From Thiotrichales bacterium (GTDB lineage Bacteria; Pseudomonadota; Gammaproteobacteria; SZUA-229): a stretch of DNA of 54,218 nucleotides. Numbering within the stretch: the stretch's first letter is position 1; each line of letters starts with the position of its first letter. The stretch is from positions 2,524,611-2,578,828 of the forward strand of contig CP070838.1 of NCBI GenBank assembly GCA_020341835.1, read 5' to 3'. A model generated the notes under the pieces. The model was given only the letters and a program-made list of their open reading frames with translations. It searched no databases and was not told the DNA's origin. Shown here piece by piece: positions 37,479-53,961 of the stretch. A program made the position numbers and the translations under genes.

Positions 37479-38765
37479 ATGTCGGATATAGTTGCAACCA
37501 ATCAGACGATTCTGGTTGTTGGCGGTGGCATCAGCGGCATGACTGCCGCTCTCGAGGCTGCTGAAGTCGGCAAGCAGGTTATCCTGATTGAAAAAAGGCC
37601 ATTCATTGGCGGCCGGGTTTCCCAGCTCTATAAATATTTCCCCAAACTTTGTTTTCCGACATGTGGACTGGAAATCAACCAGCGTCGCATGAATGCAAAC
37701 AGAAACATCACCGTGTTGACCATGTCGGAAGTGACCAACCTGCAGGGTGAAGCCGGCAACTATACCGCGACAGTCAAGATCAGTCCCCGCTATGTCAATG
37801 CGAACTGTACAGCCTGTGGTGCCTGCGCCGATGCTGTTGAAGCTGAGTTCGATAATGAGTTCAACTACAACATGGATAAACATAAAGGCGCTTACCTGCC
37901 GTACAACATGGCACAGCCGCAGCGCTACGTTATCGATCCTCGCATGATTGGTACAGACGATGCTCAAAAGGCCAGGGATGCCTGCAAGTTTGATGCTGTC
38001 GACCTGGATATGCAGGAAGAAACGGTCGAGTTAAAAGCGGGTGCCGTTGTCTGGGCTACCGGCTGGCGCCCTTACGATGCCAACAAGATACAGCCCTACG
38101 GCTACGACCGCATAGACAATGTCATCACCAGCGTCGAGTTCGAGCGCATGATGGATCCATTCGGTCCCACCGGCGGTAAACTGGTACGTCCATCTGACGG
38201 TAAGGAGGCAAAGAACGTTGCCTTCATCCAGTGTGCCGGTTCACGTGATCGCAACTATCTCAAGCATTGCTCACGCATCTGCTGCATGGCGTCGCTGAAA
38301 CAGAGTACCTATGTATCCGAGAAGTACGGTGATGAAGCTGATGTATCGATCTATTACATCGACATCCGGGCCATCGACCGTTTCGATGATTTTCACCAGC
38401 GTGTGAAAGATGATCCGAACGTCAAGTTTATCAAGTCGAAAGTTGCCAACATTGTCGAAAACAAGGAAAACGGCAACCCGACCCTGAATGGTGTCGATAC
38501 GGAAGGTTACAACCGCTATGCCAACGAACATGACCTGGTTGTGCTCGCCATCGGTATGGAGCCGAGCGTTGATAAGGACACATTCCCGATCGAAATCAAG
38601 GTAAACGATGAAGGCTTCATCGAACAGGATGAAGCAAACGGTGGTGTATTTGCCGCCGGATGTTCATCTGATGCGCTGGACGTGAACCGCGCAGTACAAA
38701 GTGCAACAGCATCCGCATTACGTGCCATTCAGGTCGTTAATCGCGTAGCTCAGGCGGAGGGTTAA
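37479..38765 (+). CDS. qmoA: QmoA-like/HdrA-type FAD-iron-sulfur subunit
   Basis: 428 residues, the length of QmoA rather than the longer methanogen HdrA. The FAD-binding ILVVGGGISGMTAALEAA is at 11-28, followed by the HdrA signature FPKLCFPTCGLEIN and a CTACGAC cysteine cluster near 107-113; CSRICCMASLKQS lies near 265-277. In the Qmo complex this subunit links APS reductase to the membrane pool. GGAGG precedes the ATG at a good distance. It leads qmoA-qmoB-hdrC-hdrB, with a three-base gap to qmoB. aprAB and qmoC are absent from the window. Confidence 0.87.
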   Translation: MSDIVATNQTILVVGGGISGMTAALEAAEVGKQVILIEKRPFIGGRVSQLYKYFPKLCFPTCGLEINQRRMNANRNITVLTMSEVTNLQGEAGNYTATVKISPRYVNANCTACGACADAVEAEFDNEFNYNMDKHKGAYLPYNMAQPQRYVIDPRMIGTDDAQKARDACKFDAVDLDMQEETVELKAGAVVWATGWRPYDANKIQPYGYDRIDNVITSVEFERMMDPFGPTGGKLVRPSDGKEAKNVAFIQCAGSRDRNYLKHCSRICCMASLKQSTYVSEKYGDEADVSIYYIDIRAIDRFDDFHQRVKDDPNVKFIKSKVANIVENKENGNPTLNGVDTEGYNRYANEHDLVVLAIGMEPSVDKDTFPIEIKVNDEGFIEQDEANGGVFAAGCSSDALDVNRAVQSATASALRAIQVVNRVAQAEG

Positions 38766-38768
38766 TAC

Positions 38769-41021
38769 ATGTCTGATGAAATGAAGATTGGCGCATATAT
38801 CTGCAACGGTTGTGGTCTGGGCGAGCGCCTGGATTCAGGCCAGCTGGAGACAACAGCAACACGTGACGGCAAGGCGCAGGTTTGTCAGCAGCATGACTTC
38901 CTCTGCAGCGAGGCCGGTGTAAAAATGATCCAGGATGACATTGATAACGAAGGTGTTAACCGGGTTGTCATCGCGGCCTGTTCACGTCGTGCAAAGACCG
39001 ATGCATTCAATTTTGAAAATGTTTCCATCCATCGCGCGAACCTGCGTGAAGGTGTGATCTGGGTTCGTCCTGATACGGACGAGATGACCGAGACGACACA
39101 GGAGATGGCGGATGACTACATTCGTATGGCCTGCGCTGAAGCCAAGTTCAGCAAGATTCCGGAAAAGAGCGGCGAGCAGGGCATCAACAAGAACATCCTG
39201 ATCGTCGGTGGCGGTGTCGCTGGTATGAATGCTGCTCTGGAGGCTTCCAAAGCCGGTTATCCGTGTACCATCGTCGAAAAGAGCGCTGCTCTCGGTGGTG
39301 CGACAGCTCAGCTGTACAAGAAGATTCCGACGAAGGCGCCGTATGCTGATCCGGAGGATACCGGCGTTGATGAAATGATTGCCGCGGTTGAGGCCGACAG
39401 CAACATCACGGTTCATCTCAATTCAACGACAACCAACATCTCCGGCGCGCCCGGTCGTTTTGCTGCTGACATCAGTGCAGAAAGCGGCAGTACTGAAACC
39501 AGGGATTTCGGTGCGATCGTACAGGCCAGTGGTTTCACACCGTACGATGCCAACCAACTGCCTGAATTTGCCTATGGCAAGAACAAGGATGTTGTTACCC
39601 AGATGGAACTTGAAGCGCTGGCCAAAGAAGCCAACGGCGGCGCCATCAAGCGTCCGTCCGACGGCAAGGAAGTATCCAGTGTCCTGTTCATCCAGTGTGC
39701 CGGGCAGCGCAGCAAGAAAGAAGGTCATCTCGAGCATTGCTCCGGTTACTGCTGCAGCGCCAGCATCAAGCAGGCGATGTACTTCAAGGACCAGAATCCT
39801 GCAATCGATACCACCGTGCTTTACACTGACCTGCGCACCCCGGGTGCCGGCGGTGAGAACTTCTACCGCAGCGGCCAGCAGAAAGGCGTGATCTTTACCA
39901 AGGGGATCGCATCCGAAGTCGTCGATGGCGCCAACCCAACCGTCAAGTTCAAGGACCTGATCCTGGATGAAGACAACGACCTCGAAGTCGATATGGTCGT
40001 GCTGGCGACCGGTATGGTGCCGAATTCCGGCCAGCCAACCCGTGCCGAGCTGACCGATATGGACAGTGAAGATGCAGAGGCAGAGAAGGCGGGCGAAGAA
40101 GTCGAAATCAGGGTCGATGTCGAGTCTATTCTGAACCTGGATTATCGCCAGGGCAAAGACGTACCGCACATGGCCAACGGTTTTGCCGATTCGCACTTCA
40201 TCTGCTTCCCGTACGAAACCCAGCGTACCGGTATCTACACCGCCGGACCGACACGCCGCCCGATGGACTCCTACCAGGCGAGGGAAGATGCTGTTGGTGC
40301 CGCGATGCGTGCTATCTCGGAAGCTGAAAATGCCGGCCTCGGCCGCGCCGCGCACCCGCGCGTCGGTGACCTCAGCTTCCCGACCTTCCGCAAGGAAGGC
40401 TGTACCCAGTGCAAACGCTGTACCGTGGAATGCCCGTTCGGTGCCATCAACGAGGATGAAGAAGGCTATCCAATTTATAACGAGTCACGCTGCCGCCGAT
40501 GTGGTACCTGCATGGGTGCCTGTCCGGTACGTGTTATTTCGTTCGAGAACTACTCGGTCGACACCGTCGGTCAGCAGCTCAAGAACGTCGATATTCCCGA
40601 CGAGTTTGATGAAAAGCCACGCATCCTGGTTCTGGCCTGCGAAAACGATGCCTATCCGGCACTCGATATGGCGGCCCAGAACAGGCTCGAATACAGTGCG
40701 TTTGCCCGCATCATTCCGGTACGCTGTCTCGGCTCGACCAGCCTGAGCTGGATCACGGACTCGCTGAACAGCGGTTTTGACGGCATTGTCCTGATGGGTT
40801 GTCCGAGTGGTGATAACTATCAGTGTCACTTCGTCAAAGGTTCATTGATGGCGCAGGAGCGTATGTCCAAGGTCGGTGACACACTGGAGACGCTGAACCT
40901 TGAAAAAGAACGTGTGCAGACATTTGAAATATCGATAACTGATATTCATCGCGTACCGCAGATTATTAACGAAATGGCCGAAACGATCGAACAGATCGGC
41001 ATGAGCCCCTTCAAGTTCTAA
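38769..41021 (+). CDS. qmoB: QmoB-like/HdrA-MvhD-type FAD-iron-sulfur subunit
   Basis: 750 residues in three parts. An N-terminal HdrA-like region starts with YICNGCGLGERLDSG. An FAD domain opens with NILIVGGGVAGMNAAL (about 143-158). Two ferredoxin [4Fe-4S] motifs follow, CTQCKRCTVECPFGA and CRRCGTCMGACPVRV (about 546-595). The C-terminal ~130 residues form an MvhD domain with conserved cysteines in VLACEND, PVRCLGS and MGCPSGDNYQC. In Hdr/Mvh systems, MvhD domains pass electrons between a donor and HdrA-type flavins. The direction here is inferred. Confidence 0.9.
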   Translation: MSDEMKIGAYICNGCGLGERLDSGQLETTATRDGKAQVCQQHDFLCSEAGVKMIQDDIDNEGVNRVVIAACSRRAKTDAFNFENVSIHRANLREGVIWVRPDTDEMTETTQEMADDYIRMACAEAKFSKIPEKSGEQGINKNILIVGGGVAGMNAALEASKAGYPCTIVEKSAALGGATAQLYKKIPTKAPYADPEDTGVDEMIAAVEADSNITVHLNSTTTNISGAPGRFAADISAESGSTETRDFGAIVQASGFTPYDANQLPEFAYGKNKDVVTQMELEALAKEANGGAIKRPSDGKEVSSVLFIQCAGQRSKKEGHLEHCSGYCCSASIKQAMYFKDQNPAIDTTVLYTDLRTPGAGGENFYRSGQQKGVIFTKGIASEVVDGANPTVKFKDLILDEDNDLEVDMVVLATGMVPNSGQPTRAELTDMDSEDAEAEKAGEEVEIRVDVESILNLDYRQGKDVPHMANGFADSHFICFPYETQRTGIYTAGPTRRPMDSYQAREDAVGAAMRAISEAENAGLGRAAHPRVGDLSFPTFRKEGCTQCKRCTVECPFGAINEDEEGYPIYNESRCRRCGTCMGACPVRVISFENYSVDTVGQQLKNVDIPDEFDEKPRILVLACENDAYPALDMAAQNRLEYSAFARIIPVRCLGSTSLSWITDSLNSGFDGIVLMGCPSGDNYQCHFVKGSLMAQERMSKVGDTLETLNLEKERVQTFEISITDIHRVPQIINEMAETIEQIGMSPFKF

Positions 41022-41046
41022 GAGGACAGTTTGAGGAATAGTTACC

Positions 41047-41664
41047 ATGAGTGATACGAATACAAGTATGGTAGAAAAATACCGCAATAACTTCCTCAAG
41101 GAAGTTGAAGCCAATGTCGAAGAAGGCGAATGGGTGAAAATGTGCATGCAGTGCGGTGTCTGCTCCGGTTCATGCCCGCTGGGTCCGCACTGGGATCACC
41201 CGCCGCAGGAACTGTTCATGATGATTCGCGCCGGCAAGCGCGATGAAGTGCTGGAGTCGACGTCCATGTGGATGTGTACTTCCTGCTACAACTGCATTGT
41301 GCGCTGCCCGCGTGAACTGCCGATAACGCATATCATGCACGGACTCGCACACTACGCTACACGTCTTGGCATCGAGCCCAAGAACCAGCCGACACGCAAG
41401 TTTGCCCAGTTGTTCTGGGACAACCTGGCCAGGAACGGCCGCGTCAACGAGCTCAAGCTGGGTATCAGTCTTTACTTCATGAACGGTATTGTCGAAGGTA
41501 TCAAGACAGCACTGGGCATGGCCGGCATCGGCATGGGCATGGTCAAGACCAAGCGAATGAACCCGATGGAAATCCTCGGCGGTCACACCGTCAAGGACAA
41601 GAAAGGCTTCCAGGCAATGATCAAGAAAGCCCAGGAACTCGAAGCGGCGCGCGTCGATAACTAG
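41047..41664 (+). CDS. hdrC: HdrC-like iron-sulfur subunit
   Basis: 205 residues with two [4Fe-4S] ferredoxin motifs: CMQCGVCSGSCPLG (about 34-47) and CTSCYNCIVRCPREL (about 76-90). The rest is mostly helical, with no clear membrane helix, so this is a soluble HdrC and not the heme b membrane fusion QmoC. It starts 25 bases after qmoB and is followed by hdrB after 17 bases. Confidence 0.92.
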   Translation: MSDTNTSMVEKYRNNFLKEVEANVEEGEWVKMCMQCGVCSGSCPLGPHWDHPPQELFMMIRAGKRDEVLESTSMWMCTSCYNCIVRCPRELPITHIMHGLAHYATRLGIEPKNQPTRKFAQLFWDNLARNGRVNELKLGISLYFMNGIVEGIKTALGMAGIGMGMVKTKRMNPMEILGGHTVKDKKGFQAMIKKAQELEAARVDN

Positions 41665-41681
41665 AGGCAGGTATTAACATA

Positions 41682-42581
41682 ATGGCTACTAAAGAATATT
41701 CATTTTATCCGGGTTGTTCATCTCAGGAAGGTGCTTCATCTTCGAACTACCTGAAGTCAGTTAACACGATGTGTGAAGTGCTTGATATCAAGCTCAATAC
41801 CATCCCTGACTGGAACTGCTGCTCGGCCTCTATCGGCTACTGCGGTGGTGGCGAACTGCCTCGTCTGGCGCTGTCGGCACGTAATATCGCCCTGTCAGAA
41901 CAGCACAATGCCGGCCAGGACATTGTCGCTACCTGTGCTGCCTGCTGGCTCGCGACCAAGGAAACGCAGGAACGTCTTGAAATGGATGGCGACCTGATGG
42001 CTGAGACCAACCAGGCCCTGTCAGAAGCAGGTCTGACGCTGAAAAACGAAAACAAGATTCGTCACATGGTTGAAGTGCTGATCGAAGACCTCGGTTATGA
42101 TGAACTGGGCAAGCACGTAACCAAACCGCTCGAAGGCATCAAGATTGCCGGTTACGTCGGTTGCCAGACCAACCGTCCTTTCGGTATCGAAGGCGAGTCG
42201 TTTGAAAATCCAAAGTACCTGGACAAGTTTATCGAAACCATGGGCGCAGAGCCTGTTGAGAAGTATGACAAGAAGGTTTCATGCTGTGGCGGTGCGCTGG
42301 CATTCTCCGAGCCCGAGAAGTCACAGGCATTGATCAAGGACATCATCGAGGCGGCTTACGATGGCGGTGCAGACATGATTGTGACACCGTGCCCGGTTTG
42401 CCAGATGAATGTTGAAGTTTACCAGGACAAGATCAATGCCAAGTATGGTACCAAGTTCAGTATTCCGGTGACCTATTACAGTACCTTGATGTCGGTTGCT
42501 TATGGCAAGAGCGGCAAGGAGGCCGGTCTCGACGGTCAGATTATTCCAGCGAAGAAGCTGGAAGATATCGCCGGCAAGTAA
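41682..42581 (+). CDS. hdrB: HdrB-like catalytic subunit with two CCG domains
   Basis: 299 residues with two complete cysteine-rich (CCG) domains. The first has C11 in YPGCSSQEG, the pair in NCCSASIGYCGG, and CAAC. The second has YVGCQTN, SCCGGALAFSEPEK and CPVC. In methanogen HdrB these bind two noncubane [4Fe-4S] clusters that cleave the heterodisulfide, so the catalytic residues are retained here. The physiological disulfide or polysulfide substrate is unknown. A terminator follows at 42643. Confidence 0.92.
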   Translation: MATKEYSFYPGCSSQEGASSSNYLKSVNTMCEVLDIKLNTIPDWNCCSASIGYCGGGELPRLALSARNIALSEQHNAGQDIVATCAACWLATKETQERLEMDGDLMAETNQALSEAGLTLKNENKIRHMVEVLIEDLGYDELGKHVTKPLEGIKIAGYVGCQTNRPFGIEGESFENPKYLDKFIETMGAEPVEKYDKKVSCCGGALAFSEPEKSQALIKDIIEAAYDGGADMIVTPCPVCQMNVEVYQDKINAKYGTKFSIPVTYYSTLMSVAYGKSGKEAGLDGQIIPAKKLEDIAGK

Positions 42582-42714: not shown

Positions 42715-42728
42715 TTGATAAAGGTCAA
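42715..42728 (+). promoter_or_regulatory. FNR/Dnr-type box upstream of nnrS
   Basis: TTGATAAAGGTCAA matches the FNR consensus TTGAT-N4-ATCAA at nine of ten defined bases. It lies 74 bases before the ATG at 42789. CRP/FNR-family NO or oxygen sensors commonly control nnrS genes. A precise -10 at the expected spacing is not clear here. Confidence 0.7.
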
Positions 42729-42788
42729 AGAGTATTGCGGAAATTCATGTAAAAGTGCACTCCGGCTTGAGTGGCTTTTCGATATTCG

Positions 42789-43982
42789 ATGATCAATCTT
42801 GAACCAGAAGTTGTGACCGGCGTACCGTTGTTCCGGCTGGCCTTCCGGCCGTTTTTTCTCGGTGCCGGCATCTTTGCCGTGCTGTCTGTTTCTGTCTGGA
42901 CGGCTGTTTATTTCCATGGCATGAACACCAGCTTTTCGGGGATGGATGCGGTCACCTGGCACGCGCATGAAATGATTTTCGGTTATGCCATGGCGGTGAT
43001 CGCAGGTTTCCTGTTGACAGCCATCAAGAACTGGACGGGACAGCAAACCCTGCGAGGTCCAGGACTGGCCGTACTGTTTGTTCTCTGGCTGCTGGCCCGT
43101 ATCATCCCTCTGAGCGGTGTAGCCGTGCCACTGGTTGTACTGGCCATCATTGATTTACTGTTCATGCTGATGCTTGTCTGGGCAGCCACTATGCCGGTAC
43201 TGAAAGTCAAACAGTACAAGCAGATGGGTGTAGTCTCGAAAATCGTTCTGCTGATGTTGAGTAATCTGCTGTTCTACCTGGGTGCCGGCGGTGTTATCGA
43301 GGATGGTGAACGCATGGGTCTGTACTCGGGCCTTTACATGGTAATCGCCCTGTTACTCGTCATGGCAAGGCGCGTCATACCTTTTTTTATAGAAAAGGGT
43401 ATCGATCACAAGGCCGAGATCAAGAACCGGCTCTGGGTGGATATGGCCAGCCTGGTCTTTCTGATCCTGTTGTGGCTCCTGGATGTGTTTACGACCCTGA
43501 CCACCGCCGTTTCGGTTGCGGCCGGTGTACTGGCGGGACTGCACCTGATACGTATGGCAGGCTGGTACACGAACCAGATCTGGCGCAAGCCGCTGTTATG
43601 GGTGCTTTATATCGCCTACGCCTCGCTGGTGGCGGGTTTTGCACTGAAGTGTGTCGAGCCATGGCTGGAGGTCTCTCCCTTTCTCGCGGTGCACGCATTC
43701 GCCTATGGCGGCATCGGCGTGATGACCCTTGGTATGATGTCACGCGTGATACTTGGTCATACCGGTAGAAATGTGTTCGAACCGCCACCGGTCCTTTTCT
43801 GGTGTTTTGCCCTGCTGATAGGCGGGGCCGTGATCAGGATCTTCTTCCCGTTAATCAGTATGGACCACTACAGCTACTGGATCGGACTGTCACAGCTGTT
43901 GTGGATTGCCTCGTTTCTGCTGTTCCTGGTCGTCTATGCGCCGATGCTGGTAAAGACGAGGGTCGATGGCAGGGACGGGTGA
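42789..43982 (+). CDS. nnrS: NnrS-family heme/copper membrane protein
   Basis: 397 residues with about 12 membrane helices. It begins EPEVVTGVPLFRLAFRPFF, the typical NnrS start, and carries histidines in HAHEMIFGYAMAV. NnrS proteins protect against nitrosative stress during denitrification. The ATG at 42789 is preferred; a GTG at 42771 would add six residues but leaves little room after the FNR-like box. It stands alone between the hdrB terminator and a repeat region. Confidence 0.9.
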   Translation: MINLEPEVVTGVPLFRLAFRPFFLGAGIFAVLSVSVWTAVYFHGMNTSFSGMDAVTWHAHEMIFGYAMAVIAGFLLTAIKNWTGQQTLRGPGLAVLFVLWLLARIIPLSGVAVPLVVLAIIDLLFMLMLVWAATMPVLKVKQYKQMGVVSKIVLLMLSNLLFYLGAGGVIEDGERMGLYSGLYMVIALLLVMARRVIPFFIEKGIDHKAEIKNRLWVDMASLVFLILLWLLDVFTTLTTAVSVAAGVLAGLHLIRMAGWYTNQIWRKPLLWVLYIAYASLVAGFALKCVEPWLEVSPFLAVHAFAYGGIGVMTLGMMSRVILGHTGRNVFEPPPVLFWCFALLIGGAVIRIFFPLISMDHYSYWIGLSQLLWIASFLLFLVVYAPMLVKTRVDGRDG

Positions 43983-44512: not shown

Positions 44513-46243
44513 TTAACGCACTTTAACGGTTGTCAGTTCTTCACCATCAGGGTCGGTCAAGTGTACGGCACAGGCAATACACGGATCGAAACTGTGGATG
44601 GTGCGCAAGATTTCAACAGGCTGTTCGGGATCATGCAGGGTGTGATTGTCCTGCAGTGCAGCTTCATACGCCCCCGGTTGTCCGCTTGCATCTCTGGGTC
44701 CGGCATTCCATGTGCTCGGTACCACGGCCTGGTAATTCTTGATCTTCTGATTTTCTATCACGATCCAGTGAGCCAGTGCCCCTCGGGGTGCCTCCATGTA
44801 ACCAACACCGCGCGCACTCGTCGGCCAGCTTGATGGTTCCCACAGGTCCTGGTTGAAGGTCCGGGTATCACCGGCTTTGATGTTGGCGATAAGATCGTCA
44901 TACCAGGTCTGCATGGTGTCAGCAAAGATCTTGGTTTCAAGGCCGCGTGCCGCCGTCCGACCCAGTGTAGAGAACAGTGCGGTCACCGGTACGTCCAGAG
45001 TATTCAGCGTCAGGTTGACCAGTTCCTTGGCCTGTTCATTACCGGTGGCGTACAGCATCAACACACGAGAGAGCGGCCCGACTTCCATCGCATTACCTTT
45101 CCAGCGCGGTGACTTGAGCCATGAATAGGATTCTTCCACGTTCAGATGTGAATACGGCGGTTTTGGTCCGGTGTAGTTCAGGTTGGTTTCACCGTCATAG
45201 GGATGCAGCGGCTGGTTTTTGCCGCCGTTATAGTCGTACCAGGAATGGGCCACGTATTCCTGAATCTGGCTGGGATCGTTCATATCGACTTCGTGTACCG
45301 TTGTGATATCACGGTTCAGGATAGCGCCTGGCGGAACCAGGTAGGATGAAGTATCAGCCATACCCTTGCCGGCCTGGGGGAAGTCGCCATAGGTCAGGAA
45401 GTTACCGAGTCCTTCACCGCGTGAGCCCCAGTCCTTGTAAAAGCCCGCGATCGCCAGCAGGTCAGGGATATAGACCTGGTCAACGAAGGTCCTCATCTGG
45501 TTGATGATGTCCTGGACCTGCGACAGGCGTTTGGAATTGATTGCCGAATCAGAGTTCAGGTCGATCGGCGACGCAACACCGCCGACAAGGAAGTTCGGAT
45601 GCGGGTTCTTGCCGCCGAATATGGTGTGCAGTTGGGCGACATCACGTTGCCAGCTGAGGGCTTCAAGGTAATGGGCAACCGCCATCAGGTTGGCTTCGGG
45701 CGGCAGCTTGTAGGCCGGGTGTCCCCAGTAAGCCTTGGCAAAGATGCCGAGCTGCCCGGCTTCGACGAAGTCTTTCAGCTTCTTCTTCATGTCCGAAAAG
45801 TAGCCCGGTGAAGACTTCGGATAGTTGCTCAATGACTGTGCCAGGTCCGATGTTGCCTTGGGGTCGGCACTCAGGGCCGATACCACGTCCACCCAGTCCA
45901 GTGCATGCAGGTGATAGAAATGCATGACATGGTCATGAATGTACTGTGCCCCGTTCATCAGGTTGCGGATCAGTTCTGCATTGGGCGGAATAGGATACTT
46001 CAGTGCATCTTCAACCGAACGGATGGAGGCCAGGCCATGTACCAGTGTGCAGACACCGCAGATACGCTGCGCAAAGGCCCATGCGTCTCTGGGATCCCGG
46101 CCTTGTAGAATGACTTCGATACCACGCACCATCGTGCCTGACGAATAGGCGCTCTCAATCTTGTCGCCGTTCATTTGCGCTTCGATACGAAGGTGACCCT
46201 CGATGCGGGTTATCGGGTCAACTACAACTCTTTCATTGGACAT
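44513..46243 (-). CDS. hydL: [NiFe] hydrogenase large subunit (group 1, Isp type)
   Basis: 576 residues carrying the NiFe(CN)2CO active site. The N-terminal nickel-ligand motif is RICGVC with C62 and C65. The C-terminal motif is DPCIACAVH at 553-561 with C555 and C558. A 15-residue tail after H561 (LTDPDGEELTTVKVR) is the maturation extension removed by the HyaD-type protease. It begins DPITRIEGHLRIEAQ. The order hydS-isp1-isp2-hydL matches the Allochromatium/Thiocapsa-type membrane hydrogenases (group 1e). Electrons are expected to go to Isp1/Isp2 and on to quinone or Hdr-type acceptors. Confidence 0.96.
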   Translation of the reverse strand: MSNERVVVDPITRIEGHLRIEAQMNGDKIESAYSSGTMVRGIEVILQGRDPRDAWAFAQRICGVCTLVHGLASIRSVEDALKYPIPPNAELIRNLMNGAQYIHDHVMHFYHLHALDWVDVVSALSADPKATSDLAQSLSNYPKSSPGYFSDMKKKLKDFVEAGQLGIFAKAYWGHPAYKLPPEANLMAVAHYLEALSWQRDVAQLHTIFGGKNPHPNFLVGGVASPIDLNSDSAINSKRLSQVQDIINQMRTFVDQVYIPDLLAIAGFYKDWGSRGEGLGNFLTYGDFPQAGKGMADTSSYLVPPGAILNRDITTVHEVDMNDPSQIQEYVAHSWYDYNGGKNQPLHPYDGETNLNYTGPKPPYSHLNVEESYSWLKSPRWKGNAMEVGPLSRVLMLYATGNEQAKELVNLTLNTLDVPVTALFSTLGRTAARGLETKIFADTMQTWYDDLIANIKAGDTRTFNQDLWEPSSWPTSARGVGYMEAPRGALAHWIVIENQKIKNYQAVVPSTWNAGPRDASGQPGAYEAALQDNHTLHDPEQPVEILRTIHSFDPCIACAVHLTDPDGEELTTVKVR

Positions 46244-46297: not shown

Positions 46298-47557
46298 CTA
46301 GCTTTCATCCAGGTTTTCGGCCAGTGTTTCAGTCAGGCTGAGTACCGGCAGTTCCATGTGATATTCCTCGAGACCATCTTCGAGATGAATGCGGCAATTC
46401 GAACAGGCCGAAATCATGCCATCGACATGGATTGCATCTAGCTGATCTTTCTTGCGCTGGAACACCCGCAGTCGTATTTCATCGGCGCGTTCATTGGAGC
46501 TGACGCCGCCGCCGGCACCGCAGCACCAGTTCATCTTGCCGGGGTCCGGCATTTCGACGAAATTGTCCGCAAACATGCCGATCAGGTTCCTCGGTTCGTC
46601 GATTACACCGCCGCGCCGTGAGATCTGGCAGGGATCGTGGTAGGTCAGGCGATCCTTTAACCGGCCCTTCACCCGCAGACGGTCCTTTTTTCGCAGGTCG
46701 TCGAGCAACTCGAGTATGTGTACGACCTTGAAGTCATAGGACTTGCCGATCAGGTTCGGCCCTTCCCAGCGGATCGCCATGTAGGCGTGGCCGCATTCAG
46801 GACTGATGACGTTCTTGACCTTGAGTTTCGCCGCGGCATCGACGATGCGCTGCACCAGTTCGGCTGCGATATCCGAGGAGCCGATCTGGATGCCGCTGTT
46901 GGTAGCCTCGAACGCATCTGACGAGATGGTCCAGCTGACGCCGGCATGCTTGAAAATCTTCGCCACCGCTTCGATGAACTCCGGGAAATTCATGATTTCC
47001 ATCGATGACAGCAGCAGCATGTAATCGGCACCTTCAACATCGACCGGGATCGTCATGCCGGTATCATTTTCAACATGTGCAATCTGGGCCTGCAGCGCCG
47101 GCAGCTTCACACCCATCGGGCTGCCGATGGTAACCGCGCGCTTGGTGGCGCCGATCAGCCCCGGTGGCGCGTGCCCGGAGGCGGCCATGCCTTCGCGCGT
47201 TTTGCGGATCATATCGGTGATGTCGTTGCCGACCGGGCAGACCATGGAACAGCGGCCGCACAGGGTGCAGCTGTCGTAGATCAGCGTTTCCCATTCAGCC
47301 AGCATGTCGTCGGTCACTTTTTTACCGAAGCCGAATATCTTGCCCAGTCGTCCCAGCAGTGTGTATTCCTGTCGCCAGACGCGGCGCAGCGGTTCGGTTT
47401 TATTGATCGGTGTACGTTCCGGCGCACCGGTCTCGGTGAAGAACAGGCAGGCTTCGGAACACATGCCGCAGTGGACACAACTGCTGAAGAAGGAAGCGAC
47501 CGAGGCGTCGACCTGTTCCTTCAGTGCGTTGTAGCCTTTTTCAAAGGACGCGCTCAT
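46298..47557 (-). CDS. isp2: Isp2, HdrD-like iron-sulfur protein of the hydrogenase
   Basis: 419 residues. Two ferredoxin motifs near the N-terminus (CVHCGMCSEAC, about 27-37, and CTLCGRCSMVCPVG, about 96-109) are followed by CCG-type cysteine domains, the second complete with DPCQ, WCCGAGGG and CSNC. The layout is HdrC plus HdrB fused, as in Isp2. It overlaps isp1 by four bases and lies 54 bases before hydL. It presumably receives electrons from hydrogenase through Isp1, or passes them to a disulfide-like acceptor. Confidence 0.9.
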   Translation of the reverse strand: MSASFEKGYNALKEQVDASVASFFSSCVHCGMCSEACLFFTETGAPERTPINKTEPLRRVWRQEYTLLGRLGKIFGFGKKVTDDMLAEWETLIYDSCTLCGRCSMVCPVGNDITDMIRKTREGMAASGHAPPGLIGATKRAVTIGSPMGVKLPALQAQIAHVENDTGMTIPVDVEGADYMLLLSSMEIMNFPEFIEAVAKIFKHAGVSWTISSDAFEATNSGIQIGSSDIAAELVQRIVDAAAKLKVKNVISPECGHAYMAIRWEGPNLIGKSYDFKVVHILELLDDLRKKDRLRVKGRLKDRLTYHDPCQISRRGGVIDEPRNLIGMFADNFVEMPDPGKMNWCCGAGGGVSSNERADEIRLRVFQRKKDQLDAIHVDGMISACSNCRIHLEDGLEEYHMELPVLSLTETLAENLDES

Positions 47558-48216
47558 GACTGTACCCCTCTGTAACCGGAAATGGCGCCGTTGTACCAGC
47601 GTGCCAGGAAGATCGTAAATGCATGCATCAGCTTGGTGAACGGAAACACGACCATCAGCAGTTGCACGCTCAGGAGATGAATCGCAATCAGGCTCGGCGC
47701 CGTCATGCCGACGCGATGGAAAGCGATATAGCCGGTAATCAATGGCAGGATGGTGACGAACCAGCCGAGGTAGTCATCATAATTGCTGAGAAAGCGTTTT
47801 ACCGGATCCCTCAGGCGGTGCACCAGTACGATGACCAGGGTAATGATGGTGATCACCGAGGTGGCATCGATCACGGGTGAGGGCAGCGCCGGCCAGCTCA
47901 CATGCAGCAGGTCCTTGAAAAACAGGATATGGGGTGCGAACAGGAAAATCACCACGAACAGGCCGATGTGAAAGATATAACCGGCGGTGACGGTAAACGC
48001 AGAGCGTTTGAAAGTAGCGGCATCGGGCACCGTCCGAGAAAACACGGTGCGCAGGCCGCTGCTCATTGCAGAGCCCTTGGCTTCGGCCAGGTTGGCCTTG
48101 CGCCCGAGCATCAGAATTTCGCCCAGCCGCAGCATAATACCGAGTGCAAAAATGATGGAGGCTATCTGGAATCCGGGGCCCCGCGCCCAGGTCAATAATT
48201 CGGTTTCAGTCATCAT
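47554..48216 (-). CDS. isp1: Isp1, NarI-like cytochrome b subunit
   Basis: 220 residues with five predicted membrane helices and histidines suited to two b hemes (IFHIGLF, FAPHIL, IHLLSVQL, KLMHAFT). Isp1 is the membrane anchor that links the periplasmic HydSL dimer to the cytoplasmic Isp2. It follows hydS after six bases and overlaps isp2 by four. Confidence 0.9.
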   Translation of the reverse strand: MMTETELLTWARGPGFQIASIIFALGIMLRLGEILMLGRKANLAEAKGSAMSSGLRTVFSRTVPDAATFKRSAFTVTAGYIFHIGLFVVIFLFAPHILFFKDLLHVSWPALPSPVIDATSVITIITLVIVLVHRLRDPVKRFLSNYDDYLGWFVTILPLITGYIAFHRVGMTAPSLIAIHLLSVQLLMVVFPFTKLMHAFTIFLARWYNGAISGYRGVQS

Positions 48217-48222
48217 TCATCC

Positions 48223-49323
48223 TCATTTTTCAAGATCATCGATAGTGACTTTCTGGTGCGCCTTGCCGGCAGCCGATTTTTTCATCCGGCCTGTTGCGCC
48301 AATAGCGACACCGGCAGCAACACCTGCGGCCGCGGCATACATGGTCGTCTTGGTGATGTTTTCGGTGGGTATGGAAATGGCCTTGTAGAAGCCGCCGCCA
48401 TCCCAGAAGTTGGGTTCGGAACAGCCGATGCAGGGATGGCCTGCTTCGATCGGAAAGCTGACACCGCCATTCCATTTTGTTGTAGCGCAGGCGTTGTATG
48501 TCGTTGGACCCTTGCAGCCGAGCTTGTACAGGCACCAGCCCTGGCGCGCGCCTTCATCATCGAAGGTTTCTGCAAACAGGCCTTTGTCATAAAACGGACG
48601 GCGGTAGCAACGATCATGAATGCTCTGACCAAAGAAGGTTTTCGGGCGCCCGAGGTTGTCCAGATCCGGAATCGTGCCGAAGGTCAGGAAATGCGTCAGC
48701 ACACCGGTGATAACCACCGGGATCGGCGGGCAGCCGGGTACGTTAATAATCGGTTTGTCCTTGATGATGTCACTAACGGAAACAGCACCGGTCGGGTTTG
48801 GCTTCGCATGCGGAATACCGCCGAACGCAGCACAGGTGCCGACGGTCACGATGGCGGCAGCGCCTTTCGCTGTTTCGATCAGCATGTCGTAATTGCTGAT
48901 ACCGGCTATGGTCGAGTAGCCGTTATTGCCATTCGGTATCGAGCCGTCGACCACCACCAGGTACTTGCCATGGTTTTCTTCCATCGCGGCTTCACGCGCC
49001 GCTTCGGCGGCATGACCGGCGGCGGCCTGCAGTGTATGGTGATAGTCCAGTGAAATCGAATCAAAGATCAGGCTTTCGACACTTGCGGTATGCGCACGCG
49101 TCAGCGATTCGGTGCAACCGGTGCACTCCTGGAAAGAGAGCCAGATCACCGAAGGTCGTCTGGCTTTTTCCAGCGCATTGGCGATCGTAGGAATCATCGA
49201 GGGTGGTAGCGCCATCATCGAAGCCGTTGCGGCACAGAACTTCAGGAAACTGCGTCGTGATACACCCTGGCTGCGTAGTGTTTCTCCCAGTGTTCTGTCT
49301 TTTCGGGATAAATCCTTCGTCAT
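48223..49323 (-). CDS. hydS: [NiFe] hydrogenase small subunit with Tat signal
   Basis: 366 residues. The twin-arginine signal VSRRSFLKF at 21-29 sends the folded dimer across the membrane, and a C-terminal helix (about 328-345) anchors it. Cysteine motifs for three clusters are present: ECTGC (C67, C70), GTCAAFGG and PGCPP for the proximal; HDRC and WCLYKLGC for the distal; CATTKWNGG and HPCIGCSEP for the medial. Position 69 is glycine where oxygen-tolerant enzymes have an extra cysteine (ECTCC), so this is a standard, oxygen-sensitive type. It overlaps hupH by four bases. Confidence 0.95.
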   Translation of the reverse strand: MTKDLSRKDRTLGETLRSQGVSRRSFLKFCAATASMMALPPSMIPTIANALEKARRPSVIWLSFQECTGCTESLTRAHTASVESLIFDSISLDYHHTLQAAAGHAAEAAREAAMEENHGKYLVVVDGSIPNGNNGYSTIAGISNYDMLIETAKGAAAIVTVGTCAAFGGIPHAKPNPTGAVSVSDIIKDKPIINVPGCPPIPVVITGVLTHFLTFGTIPDLDNLGRPKTFFGQSIHDRCYRRPFYDKGLFAETFDDEGARQGWCLYKLGCKGPTTYNACATTKWNGGVSFPIEAGHPCIGCSEPNFWDGGGFYKAISIPTENITKTTMYAAAAGVAAGVAIGATGRMKKSAAGKAHQKVTIDDLEK

Positions 49324-49772
49324 GTGTTGGTCTCCGCATCTGTTTCGGGTTTGTTTGATTCAGCCGCTTCGCTGAGCTCGTTCTCGAGCTGGTGCACTGC
49401 GATTGACATATCTTCATGCTGCGACTTGAGAATATCGGGAATTCGGGTGATTTCGATAAAGCGGCCAATGATGTCGTTTTCTTCGTTGTGGTGTGTAACC
49501 AGCCAGACGCCGGCAAAACGGGTTTCATAGATTTCGCTGGGGCCGAGCGCATTCAGCTTGGCATGGACCTCGCCACAACACAGTGTATCGATAATCCTGT
49601 CTTCTTCGCCGGGAGCCAGCGGGATGCTGCGCAGGTCGATCACCCGGGTTTCACCGGTTTCGAGCAGCTTGTCGAGCGCATGACGTATTTCATGCAGGAT
49701 CGGTTGAACGTTCCAGGTCAAATCGTTGCCGATCTGAATGTTGAACTGGGGTATGGCAGCTTCTTCTGACAT
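49320..49772 (-). CDS. hupH: HupH/HyaF-family hydrogenase expression/formation protein
   Basis: 150 residues. A conserved HupH C-terminal domain contains DLRSIPLAPGEEDRIIDTL, GEVHAKLNALGPSEI and GVWLVTHHNEEND. The protein is implicated in maturing or loading the small subunit clusters. It is shorter than HyaF of E. coli and seems to be a single domain. It sits just before hydS and overlaps it by four bases. Confidence 0.9.
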   Translation of the reverse strand: MSEEAAIPQFNIQIGNDLTWNVQPILHEIRHALDKLLETGETRVIDLRSIPLAPGEEDRIIDTLCCGEVHAKLNALGPSEIYETRFAGVWLVTHHNEENDIIGRFIEITRIPDILKSQHEDMSIAVHQLENELSEAAESNKPETDAETNT

Positions 49773-49779
49773 GGAGGGC

Positions 49780-50631
49780 TTATTCCTTGACCGTCGGGCA
49801 CTGCGGCTCTGCAGACCAGACCAGCAGCGGACAGTTGGAATGGCGTATCACTTCTGCAGTCACGGATTCATCCATCGCGATCTTGCCACCACCGGTGCCG
49901 TGTGTTGCCATCGATACCAGATCGATTCCGTGGCTGTCGACTCTTTCCAGGATCTCCCGGATCGGTCGTTTATACGTGGTCATGTCGAGCGACACCCTCA
50001 GGCCAGCATTGGCCAGGGCAACGCTGTGTTGCTGCAGTTTCGCCTTGATGGCCGCTTTCTCTTCAGCGTATTCTGCGTGTTCGAGTTCATCGTGAAATAG
50101 CACGATTTCCGAATCGTGCATTTTCGCAAAGCGCTCGACACAACTGAGAATGGCCGAGGATGCGTCAGAGCCGTCGAGTGGCACCAGAATACGTTTGAAC
50201 AGGTCTTCGGTACGCTGGTCTGAAGGTTCCGGCTTGGCGCTGTGCAGAATGAACATTGGGCAGGGTGACTGCTTCAGTACCTGTTCGGTGACGCTGCCCT
50301 CGCGGATGCGTTCCAGCCCGGTGCGGCCATGCGTTGACATCAGTATCATCGTTGCAGGCAGCAATATGGCCATTTTGATGATTTCACGCACCGGGTCGCC
50401 CATCCGGGTTTCGCGATCAACCGCCCAATCCTCGTATTGCAGTGCGTCGTAGATCGCATTGACATTGGGATGGATCTGAACGGCTGCGTTGGCTGCATCG
50501 ACACTTGGCGTCACATGCATCAGTATAATCCGGGTTTCATCTTTGGCTTTGGGCGCTATCGACCTTACATAAAGCAGGGTCTCTTCAACGGATTCAGTAC
50601 CATCGATTGGAATAAGTATTGTTTGTTCCAT
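49780..50631 (-). CDS. Tandem universal stress protein
   Basis: 283 residues made of two UspA domains (about 1-140 and 145-283). The first has the ATP motif MSTHGRTGLERIREGS, nearly canonical; the second (SMATHGTGGGKIAMDES) is degenerate at the glycine-serine end. It is embedded between hydD and hupH with gaps of 5-7 bases, so it is part of the hydrogenase operon. A stress or adenine-nucleotide sensor acting on the hydrogenase is a guess based on position. Confidence 0.88.
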   Translation of the reverse strand: MEQTILIPIDGTESVEETLLYVRSIAPKAKDETRIILMHVTPSVDAANAAVQIHPNVNAIYDALQYEDWAVDRETRMGDPVREIIKMAILLPATMILMSTHGRTGLERIREGSVTEQVLKQSPCPMFILHSAKPEPSDQRTEDLFKRILVPLDGSDASSAILSCVERFAKMHDSEIVLFHDELEHAEYAEEKAAIKAKLQQHSVALANAGLRVSLDMTTYKRPIREILERVDSHGIDLVSMATHGTGGGKIAMDESVTAEVIRHSNCPLLVWSAEPQCPTVKE

Positions 50632-50636
50632 CGTCT

Positions 50637-51191
50637 TTATGCCCTCGTATCAGGTAATTCTGCACTGGTTTTATTGCGGTTTTGTTTCGAATCCGTCTTG
50701 CCATTGCGCAACTGTTCATTATTCCATGTCTGTATCAGTTTTACTGCTTCGTTGACAGCGATTGGTAATGCACGATGCACCGCCCGGGTGGGCTGCATGC
50801 CCCAGTCCATGTATTCCGGTTGAATACCGATGATCGCACGGTTGACCGGCAAGTGATCGGTGATGCGAGCGATATCCATCAGGTCTATCAGGCCGACTTC
50901 GTGCGCGCTTCGTTTGCTAGCGCCGAGAAAATTGTCCATCTCGGCCCCGGCAAAGGTCCTTACAGAGCCGGGCGGCATGTTTAATTCAGCAGCATCGAAT
51001 ACGACCAGGTTATCGCAATCCTCGATCCAGCTCGCCAGGGTAAAACTCAGTGTACCACCATCGAGAAAGGTCAGGTTTGGTATATCAGTATATTCTGATC
51101 GGATTAGATTTAGCGCGTGAATGCCTGCGCCTTCATCTGACAGCAAGGAATTGCCGATGCCGAGGATTAAAGTTTCGTTTTGGGTTATCAT
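50637..51191 (-). CDS. hydD: Hydrogenase maturation protease (HyaD/HybD/HupD family)
   Basis: 184 residues. It cuts the C-terminal tail of the large subunit after nickel insertion. The nickel-sensing ligands are visible as E20 (GIGNSLLSDEGAG), D66 (VVFDAAEL) and H97 (SAHEVGL). It is the first gene of the minus-strand hydrogenase operon, starting at an ATG with AGGG five to six bases upstream. It should act on HydL after H561. Confidence 0.93.
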   Translation of the reverse strand: MITQNETLILGIGNSLLSDEGAGIHALNLIRSEYTDIPNLTFLDGGTLSFTLASWIEDCDNLVVFDAAELNMPPGSVRTFAGAEMDNFLGASKRSAHEVGLIDLMDIARITDHLPVNRAIIGIQPEYMDWGMQPTRAVHRALPIAVNEAVKLIQTWNNEQLRNGKTDSKQNRNKTSAELPDTRA

Positions 51192-51243
51192 TTGAGCCCT
51201 GTATGTTATTGAAACTTTTTACCAGCGAAGCATATTCGGTATA

Positions 51244-51257
51244 TTGATACAGGTCAA
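51244..51257. promoter_or_regulatory. FNR box shared by the divergent hyd and hyp operons
   Basis: TTGATACAGGTCAA matches TTGAT-N4-ATCAA at nine of ten defined bases. Its centre (51250.5) is at -41.5 from a predicted start at 51292 on the plus strand and from one at 51209 on the minus strand. The plus -10 at the implied place is TTTAAT (51280-51285) and the minus -10 is TAAAAA (complement of 51216-51221). This class II spacing supports anaerobic activation of hypCABDF and hydD-hydL together. Confidence 0.75.
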
Positions 51258-51331
51258 TTCATTAACTTATTTTTCACTGTTTAATGATTCGTATTAATAT
51301 TGTCTTAAATATTTGAACAGAAGAAGTGCCT

Positions 51332-51559
51332 ATGTGTTTGGGAATTCCCATGCAGATAAAATCGATCGAAGGCTACACAGCACGCTGTGAAGCAAAAGGT
51401 GTCGAACGTGATGTCAGCCTGTTCATGATGCAGGATGAAGGCCTGGCGGTTGACGATTTTATTGTCGTACATGTCGGTTATGCGATACAGAAAATCACAG
51501 CCGAGGAAGCACAGACTGCCTGGGAAATCTATGACCAGATGCTGGAAGCCGGAGTCTGA
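51332..51559 (+). CDS. hypC: Hydrogenase maturation chaperone HypC
   Basis: 75 residues. The N-terminus MCLGIPMQI puts the essential Cys2 exactly at position 2 when the ATG at 51332 is used; a GTG at 51326 would break this rule. HypC carries the Fe(CN)2CO unit with HypD and delivers it to the large subunit. hypA starts one base after the stop. Confidence 0.95.
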   Translation: MCLGIPMQIKSIEGYTARCEAKGVERDVSLFMMQDEGLAVDDFIVVHVGYAIQKITAEEAQTAWEIYDQMLEAGV

Positions 51560-51560
51560 G

Positions 51561-51953
51561 ATGCATGAGCTCGCGATCTGTCAGGCGTTGATGAATCAGG
51601 TAGAAGGCATTGCCGCCGAACGAAATGCGCGCAGTGTGATTTCGATTGTTGTCGGTATGGGACCATTGTCAGGCGTTGAAGCACAGTTGCTGAAGCATGC
51701 CTACCCGGTGGCCAGTGCCGGGACTGTGGCGGAAGGTGCTGAACTGGTTATCGAAAACCTGCCTGTTCGTATCAAGTGCAGCCAGTGCGGCGAAGAATCG
51801 GAAGTGCGGCCGAACAAGCTGGTGTGTAAAACCTGTGGTGACTGGCGCACGACCGTAATCAGTGGCGATGAATTGTTGCTGATGAGCGTTGAGCTGGAGA
51901 AGGCTTCCACTAATCAAACCGGTGGTAATGGTAGCGCTACCACACTGCACTAG
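51561..51953 (+). CDS. hypA: Nickel chaperone HypA
   Basis: 130 residues starting MHELAIC, with the conserved His2-Glu3 nickel site. The zinc-binding motif is CSQC...CKTC (about 72-75 and 89-92). It works with HypB to insert nickel. The frame is open for another 42 codons upstream, but the family always begins at MHE and that position directly follows hypC. Confidence 0.95.
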   Translation: MHELAICQALMNQVEGIAAERNARSVISIVVGMGPLSGVEAQLLKHAYPVASAGTVAEGAELVIENLPVRIKCSQCGEESEVRPNKLVCKTCGDWRTTVISGDELLLMSVELEKASTNQTGGNGSATTLH

Positions 51954-51991: not shown

Positions 51992-52840
51992 ATGTGTGAT
52001 ACCTGTGGCTGTAACATTACGCACGGTAATGAAGCTCTGATCAGGCCGGGTGGCAAGCTCGCTAAAACTGACAGTGGCAGGGAAGCGGTGACCGTACTGC
52101 ACAGCCTGCTGGATGAAAACGACCACACGGCGAAACATAATCGCGAACATTTTGACAGCCACGGTGTGCTTGCGATCAACCTGATGTCATCGCCCGGGGC
52201 GGGTAAGACGGCTCTGCTCGAAGCAACGATACAGGCACTGCAGGCGCAGACTGACCGTGATCTATCGATCGCAGTGATCGAAGGCGATCTCGAAACCGAG
52301 AATGATGCCGAGCGCATACGCAAGCATGGTGTCGAAGCCATACAGATTGCAACAGGCAGTGCCTGCCACCTCGATGCGCACATGATCCACCAGGCCTTGC
52401 ATAACCTCAAGCTTGATGGCCTTGACGTCGTGTTTATCGAAAATGTCGGTAACCTGGTCTGTCCCGCCAGTTTCGACCTGGGGCAGCATCTGAATGTGAC
52501 GCTACTGTCCGTCCCCGAAGGCGACGACAAACCGGCAAAATACCCGGTGATGTTTCGTGCGGCAGATCTGGTTCTGATCAGTAAAAGTGATCTGTTGTCG
52601 GTGCTGGATGATTTCAAGCCGGAAAATGCAAAAAGCTATTTGCATGATATTGCATCGGATGCGCCGGTCTATGAACTGTCTTCCAAAAACAGCGCCGGCA
52701 TGCAACAGTGGTTTGACTGGCTGTTTGCTCAAATCGACGAGCAGAAATCACGCCTTGCCGAACATCCACCGGTAAGTGGTCACCACCACCATCATCATGA
52801 ACATCACCACGCGCATGCAGAGGACAAACCGCTGAAATGA
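51992..52840 (+). CDS. hypB: Nickel-insertion GTPase HypB with C-terminal histidine tail
   Basis: 282 residues. The N-terminal CDTCGC (2-7) is the high-affinity nickel motif. The P-loop is SSPGAGKT at 66-73, and VIEGDLET and NVGNLVCPA are other G-domain pieces. The usual histidine-rich stretch of HypB is near the N-terminus; here that region is short, and a run of 11 histidines among 14 residues sits at the C-terminus (about 264-276) instead. It overlaps hypD by four bases. Confidence 0.95.
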   Translation: MCDTCGCNITHGNEALIRPGGKLAKTDSGREAVTVLHSLLDENDHTAKHNREHFDSHGVLAINLMSSPGAGKTALLEATIQALQAQTDRDLSIAVIEGDLETENDAERIRKHGVEAIQIATGSACHLDAHMIHQALHNLKLDGLDVVFIENVGNLVCPASFDLGQHLNVTLLSVPEGDDKPAKYPVMFRAADLVLISKSDLLSVLDDFKPENAKSYLHDIASDAPVYELSSKNSAGMQQWFDWLFAQIDEQKSRLAEHPPVSGHHHHHHEHHHAHAEDKPLK

Positions 52841-53961
52841 AGACGTCAGCCGCTGAGTGGCTCGAACGTATTCATGCGTTGCCCGAAACAGCGCGCGTCA
52901 AAATCATGAACGTTTGTGGCGGTCATGAACGTTCGATTACCATGGCGGGACTGCGCAAGGCGCTGCCGGACTATATCGAACTGGTGCCCGGTCCGGGTTG
53001 CCCGGTTTGTATCTGTCCCGAAGAAGACATATTCGAAGCCATTCAGCTGGCGCTGAACGAAGACATCATACTGGTCGCCTTTGGTGACATGCTGCGTGTG
53101 CCGGTCAATGTCAGCAAGGCGCGGGCCCGCACGATGGAGCAGGCGAAGGCGCAGGGTGCGGATATCCGACCGATCGCCTCACCCACCGAAGCTGTCACCA
53201 TCGCCAGGGCGAATCCTGACAAACCGGTCGTCTTCTTTGCGGCAGGCTTCGAGACGACGACAGCGCCGGTAGCGGCGATGCTGGTTGAGGGTGTGCCGGA
53301 TAACCTGTCGGTGTTGCTGTCCGGAAGGCTGACCTGGCCTGCGGTGGCCATGCTGCTCGAGTCCGGAACACCGGGTTTCGATGCGCTGATTGCCCCCGGC
53401 CATGTATCAACGGTGATGGGGCCGGAGGAGTGGGAGTTCGTTGTCGACAGGCACAACATTCCGGCAGCGATCGCCGGTTTCGACCCCGACAGCCTGCTGG
53501 CGGCAATGTATTCCACCCTGAGACAGATCCACGAGGATCGTCGGTTTCTCGATAACTGTTATCCGCAGCTGGTGCGCCCTGGCGGCAACCCATCGGCACA
53601 GGCACAGTTGAAGCAGGCGATGAACGTGGTCGATGCCAACTGGCGCGGTGTTGGTGTGATACCGTCATCCGGCTATGTGCTCGACAGGGCCTACCACCAG
53701 CACGATGCCAGGCAGCTGTTCCCGTCTTACGCGGAGGAGGCGCGCAAACGCGCCGGTGAAATGCCGCCCGGCTGTGACTGTGCGCAGGTCGTGCTCGGCA
53801 GGATTTATCCCGATCAGTGCAAGCTGTTCGGTACGGCCTGCAAGCCCAGAACGCCGATCGGGCCCTGCATGGTTTCCGATGAAGGCGCCTGTCGCATCTG
53901 GTGGTCCGGTGGTATCCGCGAGCCCAGGCATGCGACCGAGCAGGAGACTGCCATTGGGTAG
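52837..53961 (+). CDS. hypD: Hydrogenase maturation iron-sulfur protein HypD
   Basis: 374 residues. It assembles the Fe(CN)2CO moiety with HypC. Motifs are NVCGGHERSI (C27), PGPGCPVCIC (C55, C58, C60) and the C-terminal CDCAQVVLGRIYPDQC with GTACKP. The [4Fe-4S] and cyanide-handling cysteines are all present. It overlaps hypB by four bases and hypF starts seven bases after its stop. Confidence 0.96.
   Translation: MKTSAAEWLERIHALPETARVKIMNVCGGHERSITMAGLRKALPDYIELVPGPGCPVCICPEEDIFEAIQLALNEDIILVAFGDMLRVPVNVSKARARTMEQAKAQGADIRPIASPTEAVTIARANPDKPVVFFAAGFETTTAPVAAMLVEGVPDNLSVLLSGRLTWPAVAMLLESGTPGFDALIAPGHVSTVMGPEEWEFVVDRHNIPAAIAGFDPDSLLAAMYSTLRQIHEDRRFLDNCYPQLVRPGGNPSAQAQLKQAMNVVDANWRGVGVIPSSGYVLDRAYHQHDARQLFPSYAEEARKRAGEMPPGCDCAQVVLGRIYPDQCKLFGTACKPRTPIGPCMVSDEGACRIWWSGGIREPRHATEQETAIG

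Follow-up and report, generated by a model that had tools for sequence, protein, structure and literature searches.

In Escherichia coli, the FNR site lies at −41.5 ± 4 in 19 of 23 FNR-activated promoters, and dmsA, narG, nirB, nrfA and narK exemplify the class II promoters with the site at −41.5 (PMC3688515). Such promoters combine a TTGAT-N4-ATCAA-type box at −41.5 with a σ70 −10 element, an arrangement that recurs in the divergent hyaD–hypC spacer considered here, with the difference that a −10-like hexamer lies at that distance on both sides of one box. The use of one activator site by two promoters has its own precedents, as 11 natural cases of a single CRP site serving divergent promoters are recorded in E. 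coli, where such sharing has been called rare (PMC3105977). The present spacer resembles these cases in placing one Crp/Fnr-family dimer between two promoters, and differs from them in its FNR-type box, its presumed oxygen signal, and a natural, symmetric −41.5/−41.5 geometry conserved across genera. Activation of divergent promoters from a single CRP site was reportedly also described by El-Robh and Busby in 2002. The opposite outcome is exemplified by the E. coli nrf/acsP1 region, in which FNR at −41.5 of one promoter likewise faces a divergent promoter, and the site that activates nrf represses acsP1 (PMC5434802). In the hyaD–hypC spacer, by contrast, the second −10 has a position suited to activation. 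Among hydrogenases, the Hyn enzyme of Thiocapsa roseopersicina (HydSL, with isp1-isp2), likewise of the Isp type, is controlled by the FNR-type regulator FnrT; the box described below, however, lies ahead of hyaD, which shares it with hypC, whereas the Chromatiaceae loci in our set have no box there. Maturation genes are also under FNR or FnrN control in E. coli (hyp) and Rhizobium leguminosarum (hypBFCDEX), and we know of no sharing of those promoters with a divergent structural operon. All components of the arrangement are already known, while the symmetric layout at hydrogenase genes seems to be undescribed: no account of one symmetric FNR box common to hypC and hyaD was found in the literature searched, which comprised openly licensed papers only and is weak evidence of absence.

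The spacer is located in a 54,218-nucleotide stretch of DNA from a Thiotrichales bacterium (hereafter, the window), and spans the 140 nt between the start codons of hyaD (ATG at 51191, minus strand) and hypC (ATG at 51332, plus strand). On the minus strand, a nearly gapless series of genes begins with the hyaD-type hydrogenase maturation protease (50637–51191; TIGR00072 at 124 bits, over its cut-off, and TIGR00140 at 120 bits, below it), the first gene of the structural operon; a search of viral contigs for this protease returned no match. The protease gene is followed by a universal stress protein gene (usp, 49780–50631; PF00582), a HupH C-terminal-domain hydrogenase expression protein (49320–49772; PF04809), the [NiFe]-hydrogenase small subunit HydS with its Tat signal (48223–49323; TIGR00391 over cut-off), an isp1-like, TmcC/HmcE-like membrane cytochrome b subunit (47554–48216), an isp2-like DsrK/HdrD-type iron–sulfur protein (46298–47557), and the large subunit HydL (44513–46243). 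The stress protein gene, situated within the operon between the protease and hupH, is kept in some relatives and missing in many. The hydS-isp1-isp2-hydL order and the Dsr/Hmc-like Isp subunits mark the locus as an Isp-type (group 1e) [NiFe]-hydrogenase, and the nearest solved structure to HydS is 3myr, which we take to be the Isp-type hydrogenase of Allochromatium vinosum. Oxygen-tolerant small subunits carry two extra cysteines near the proximal cluster. HydS reads ECTGCTE and GTCAAFGG, with glycine at both of those positions, and this upholds the earlier assignment, made from the sequence alone, of a standard rather than oxygen-tolerant proximal pattern; a hydrogenase without the oxygen-tolerant cluster fits control by oxygen. 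On the plus strand lie hypC (51332–51559; TIGR00074 over cut-off), hypA (51561–51953; translation beginning MHELAICQALMNQVEG, with CxxC zinc motifs), hypB (51992–52840; TIGR00073 over cut-off) and hypD (52837–53961; TIGR00075 over cut-off), after which hypF starts. A run of Qmo/Hdr-like genes at 37479–42581, classed by eye from their translations as QmoA, QmoB, HdrC and HdrB types, lies ahead of nnrS and the hydrogenase cluster and fits a sulfur-metabolising host.

Read directly in the window, the FNR-type box TTGATACAGGTCAA occupies 51244–51257, centred at 51250.5, and departs from the FNR consensus TTGATNNNNATCAA by a single mismatch. It is the only site in the spacer that scores at least 14, the runner-up reaching 13.5. 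The −10-like hexamer TAAAAA faces hyaD at 51221–51216 on the minus strand, where a preceding TGG gives it an extended −10-like character, and the hexamer TTTAAT faces hypC at 51280–51285 on the plus strand; each covers 29.5–34.5 nt from the box centre. With the −10 taken as −12 to −7, the implied starts fall at 51209 (minus) and 51292 (plus), each 41.5 nt from the box centre, and would produce leaders of 18 nt for hyaD and 40 nt for hypC. The hexamers, the implied starts and the 41.5-nt spacing in both directions are exactly those given by the sequence-only reading. A lone one-mismatch site in 54 kb is nonetheless weak evidence (the window contains 50 FNR-like sites at up to two mismatches, against 26 expected), and its significance derives from its conservation and from the recurrence of the same −10 offset at the host's other FNR boxes.

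Relatives were collected by HydS searches of the host family (29 of 54 genomes), of named contigs, and of the class as a whole (76 of 369), and every divergent hypC/hyaD spacer from those hits and from follow-up stretches was taken, yielding 73 distinct spacers with the window included. A near-consensus FNR site, defined as a score of at least 15 of 17, is found in 42 of the 73, where first-order resampling predicts 1.0; of these, 26 score at least 16 (0.14 expected), and 13 bear the perfect TTGATNNNNATCAA, scoring 17 (0.02 expected). Most closer relatives possess exactly one site, 55–64 nt from the hyaD start. The start of hypC lies anywhere between about 61 and 132 nt from the box, yet both hexamers hold near ±29.5 nt, a conserved spacing which suggests that the shared box turns on both gene sets when oxygen is absent. 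The divergent layout extends more widely than the box, being present without it in many relatives (Chromatiaceae, Thiodiazotropha, tubeworm symbionts), so that the layout does not require shared FNR control.

The positions of the hexamers were evaluated on the arms of 40 box-bearing spacers, aligned ungapped from the box centre outward, with weights according to 24 clusters (60% arm identity); since shared descent makes the clusters less than fully independent, the resulting P values serve as guides. Of all offsets in the minus arm, 29.5 nt gives the closest match to TATAAT: 3.33 of 6 positions, where permutations average 1.85 (sd 0.21) and none of 2000 reaches 3.33 at any offset. This peak makes the minus side a clear class II arrangement, and class II FNR control of the hyaD-hydS-isp1-isp2-hydL operon from the predicted start is very likely. 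Another candidate minus promoter, TTGACC-17-TATGCT, which FNR would block, was rejected as not conserved: its offset of 16.5 nt shows no peak, while 29.5 nt does. The plus arm is less tidy. A GTTWAAW-like element is conserved at 29.5–34.5 nt, where the 29.5-nt offset scores 2.85 against a permutation value of 2.01 (sd 0.22; P = 0.0005 for that offset and 0.0035 over all offsets), but TTTAAT, which reads TTAAAT in close relatives, presents a T at −11, a position where A is near-invariant. In several relatives a better hexamer, TACAAT, begins 30.5 nt out; shifting the plus −10 outward by one base helps some of these relatives and not the window sequence, and was not adopted. The claim that the box sits “exactly” at −41.5 is consequently firm for the minus promoter, and for the plus promoter becomes −41.5 or −42.5.

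The host genome offers an independent view of the offset. The box is one of 59 exact TTGAYNNNNRTCAA sites, compared with 6 for the reversed pattern, a comparison weakened by the unusual dinucleotides of that pattern, owing to which a genome-wide reversed-pattern control was not relied on either. By a simple open-reading-frame rule, 35 of the 59 fall outside long frames, 13 of these between divergent frames. In the stretches around the exact sites, with the window boxes and one crowded locus (L261) set aside, the match of 30 other gene-directed box arms to TATAAT peaks exactly 29.5 nt out, at 2.60 where the mean is 1.80 (P = 0.002 with all offsets considered), which indicates that FNR boxes of this host generally lie at −41.5, as in E. 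coli. A suitable regulator is also encoded. Among seven Crp-type HTH proteins, L001 is FNR, scoring 267.6 bits against a curated cut-off of 228 and aligning with a solved FNR at the cluster cysteines, both the N-terminal ones and the later one, with a recognition helix reading ETVSR.

Together, these observations favor, with a probability of about two in three, a reading of the 140-nt spacer as a bidirectional anaerobic control region in which one FNR box at −41.5 activates both operons. At low oxygen, an FNR dimer with its [4Fe-4S] cluster would bind the box at 51244–51257 and, from −41.5, contact σ70-RNA polymerase in the class II manner at the minus promoter (start near 51209), driving hyaD-usp-hupH-hydS-isp1-isp2-hydL. 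The same dimer would be equally placed at the plus promoter (start near 51292) to drive hypCABDF, and this equal placing would induce the enzyme and its maturation genes together. Polymerases at the two promoters would have overlapping footprints on the box, so that alternating rather than simultaneous firing is expected, each FNR-bound template probably firing in one direction at a time. The proposal that one dimer serves both operons, already made from the sequence alone, fares unevenly: activation of hyaD-hydL is well supported by the conserved box, the hexamers at ±29.5 nt and the host FNR, while class II activation of hypCABDF, though likely, is on less sure ground, given its atypical −10 and a second conserved element that could form an FNR-blocked promoter. 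A further step, that one-direction recruitment through two equal class II faces fixes the proportion of structural to maturation products, and that the geometry has been kept across gammaproteobacterial groups as a selected symmetric switch for that purpose, is speculative and appears unlikely. If correct, the bidirectional reading provides a testable, sequence-based account of how uncultured sulfur-cycle Gammaproteobacteria would co-induce an Isp-type hydrogenase and the machinery that matures it as oxygen falls, as well as a natural, widely conserved test case of one Crp/Fnr-family dimer serving two equidistant class II promoters.

The class II reading does not account for the second conserved element in the plus arm, TATTTT at 51268–51273, which begins 17.5 nt from the box centre and may serve as a nested promoter or as the upstream α-CTD contact of the minus promoter. 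At 17.5 nt the arm attains its highest peak (3.25 matches over the 24 clusters, reached by none of 2000 permutations), and a promoter scan joins TATTTT to TTGATA, the left half of the box, across an 18-nt spacer as a candidate σ70 promoter at 51244–51273. Accordingly, FNR might activate hyaD-hydL alone, with hypC transcribed from this promoter (start near 51280) and the box's left half acting as its −35, in which case FNR would repress or retune hypC, either by repression as at nrf/acsP1, the E. coli precedent, or by a gal-like switch between two nested starts. That the left half reads TTGACA, a perfect −35, in several relatives lends itself to the same interpretation. Such a promoter would, however, have a spacer of 18 rather than 17 nt, its T-rich −10 could equally be the α-CTD contact just mentioned, and it leaves aside the 29.5-nt element, which is also conserved and shares its offset with the genome's other FNR boxes. 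In three loci, L070, L080 and L221, the hexamer at 29.5 nt is promoter-like and that at 17.5 nt is not (AAAAAC, AGTTGT); in L070 and L080, whose arms otherwise differ, both 29.5-nt hexamers are canonical at −11 and −7 (TAAGAT and TAGGAT). This pattern and the class II offset favor TTTAAT over TATTTT as the hypC −10, against which stands the missing A at −11, and an FNR-blocked hypC promoter is judged unlikely.

The identity of the protein on the box calls for similar weighing. Besides L001, the proteins L002 (ETFSR), L005 (ETVSR), L003 and L007 have an E-x-x-S-R helix without the complete N-terminal cysteine set, which leaves FNR the presumed rather than the proven occupant. FNR and Dnr sites are alike, and a second FNR/Dnr-type box, TTGATAAAGGTCAA, lies at 42715–42728 in the window, about 50 nt upstream of nnrS (42771–43982; PF05940), a typical nitric-oxide-regulon gene. 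The box might then be read mainly by another Crp/Fnr protein, such as an NO-responsive Dnr-like one, and answer to nitrogen oxides or some other cue instead of oxygen. The bona fide FNR of the host, the occurrence of an above-cut-off FNR in 46 of the family's 54 genomes, and the suitability of a hydrogenase without an oxygen-tolerant cluster for oxygen control all argue for FNR, and a different reader is quite unlikely. Least credible of all is that an AT-rich spacer holds an FNR-like sequence and a pair of AT-rich hexamers by coincidence. FNR-like matches are common enough, with 653 strand-wise at up to one mismatch genome-wide and 24 of the 59 exact boxes within coding sequence, but conservation over 24 diverged clusters and the positional peaks refute chance, which is left with a negligible probability.

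Among the spacers surrounding the 59 exact sites, only one other, L271 (G000:C1:1907105-1909118), flanks its box with two class II-like hexamers: TATTTT and TAGATT lie 29.5 nt to either side of the box at 1001, which is situated between a metallophosphoesterase-like gene and a rightward gene. The window also holds an exact TTGAYNNNNRTCAA match, TTGACAGCCATCAA, at 43014–43027; it falls inside the nnrS reading frame and is probably incidental.
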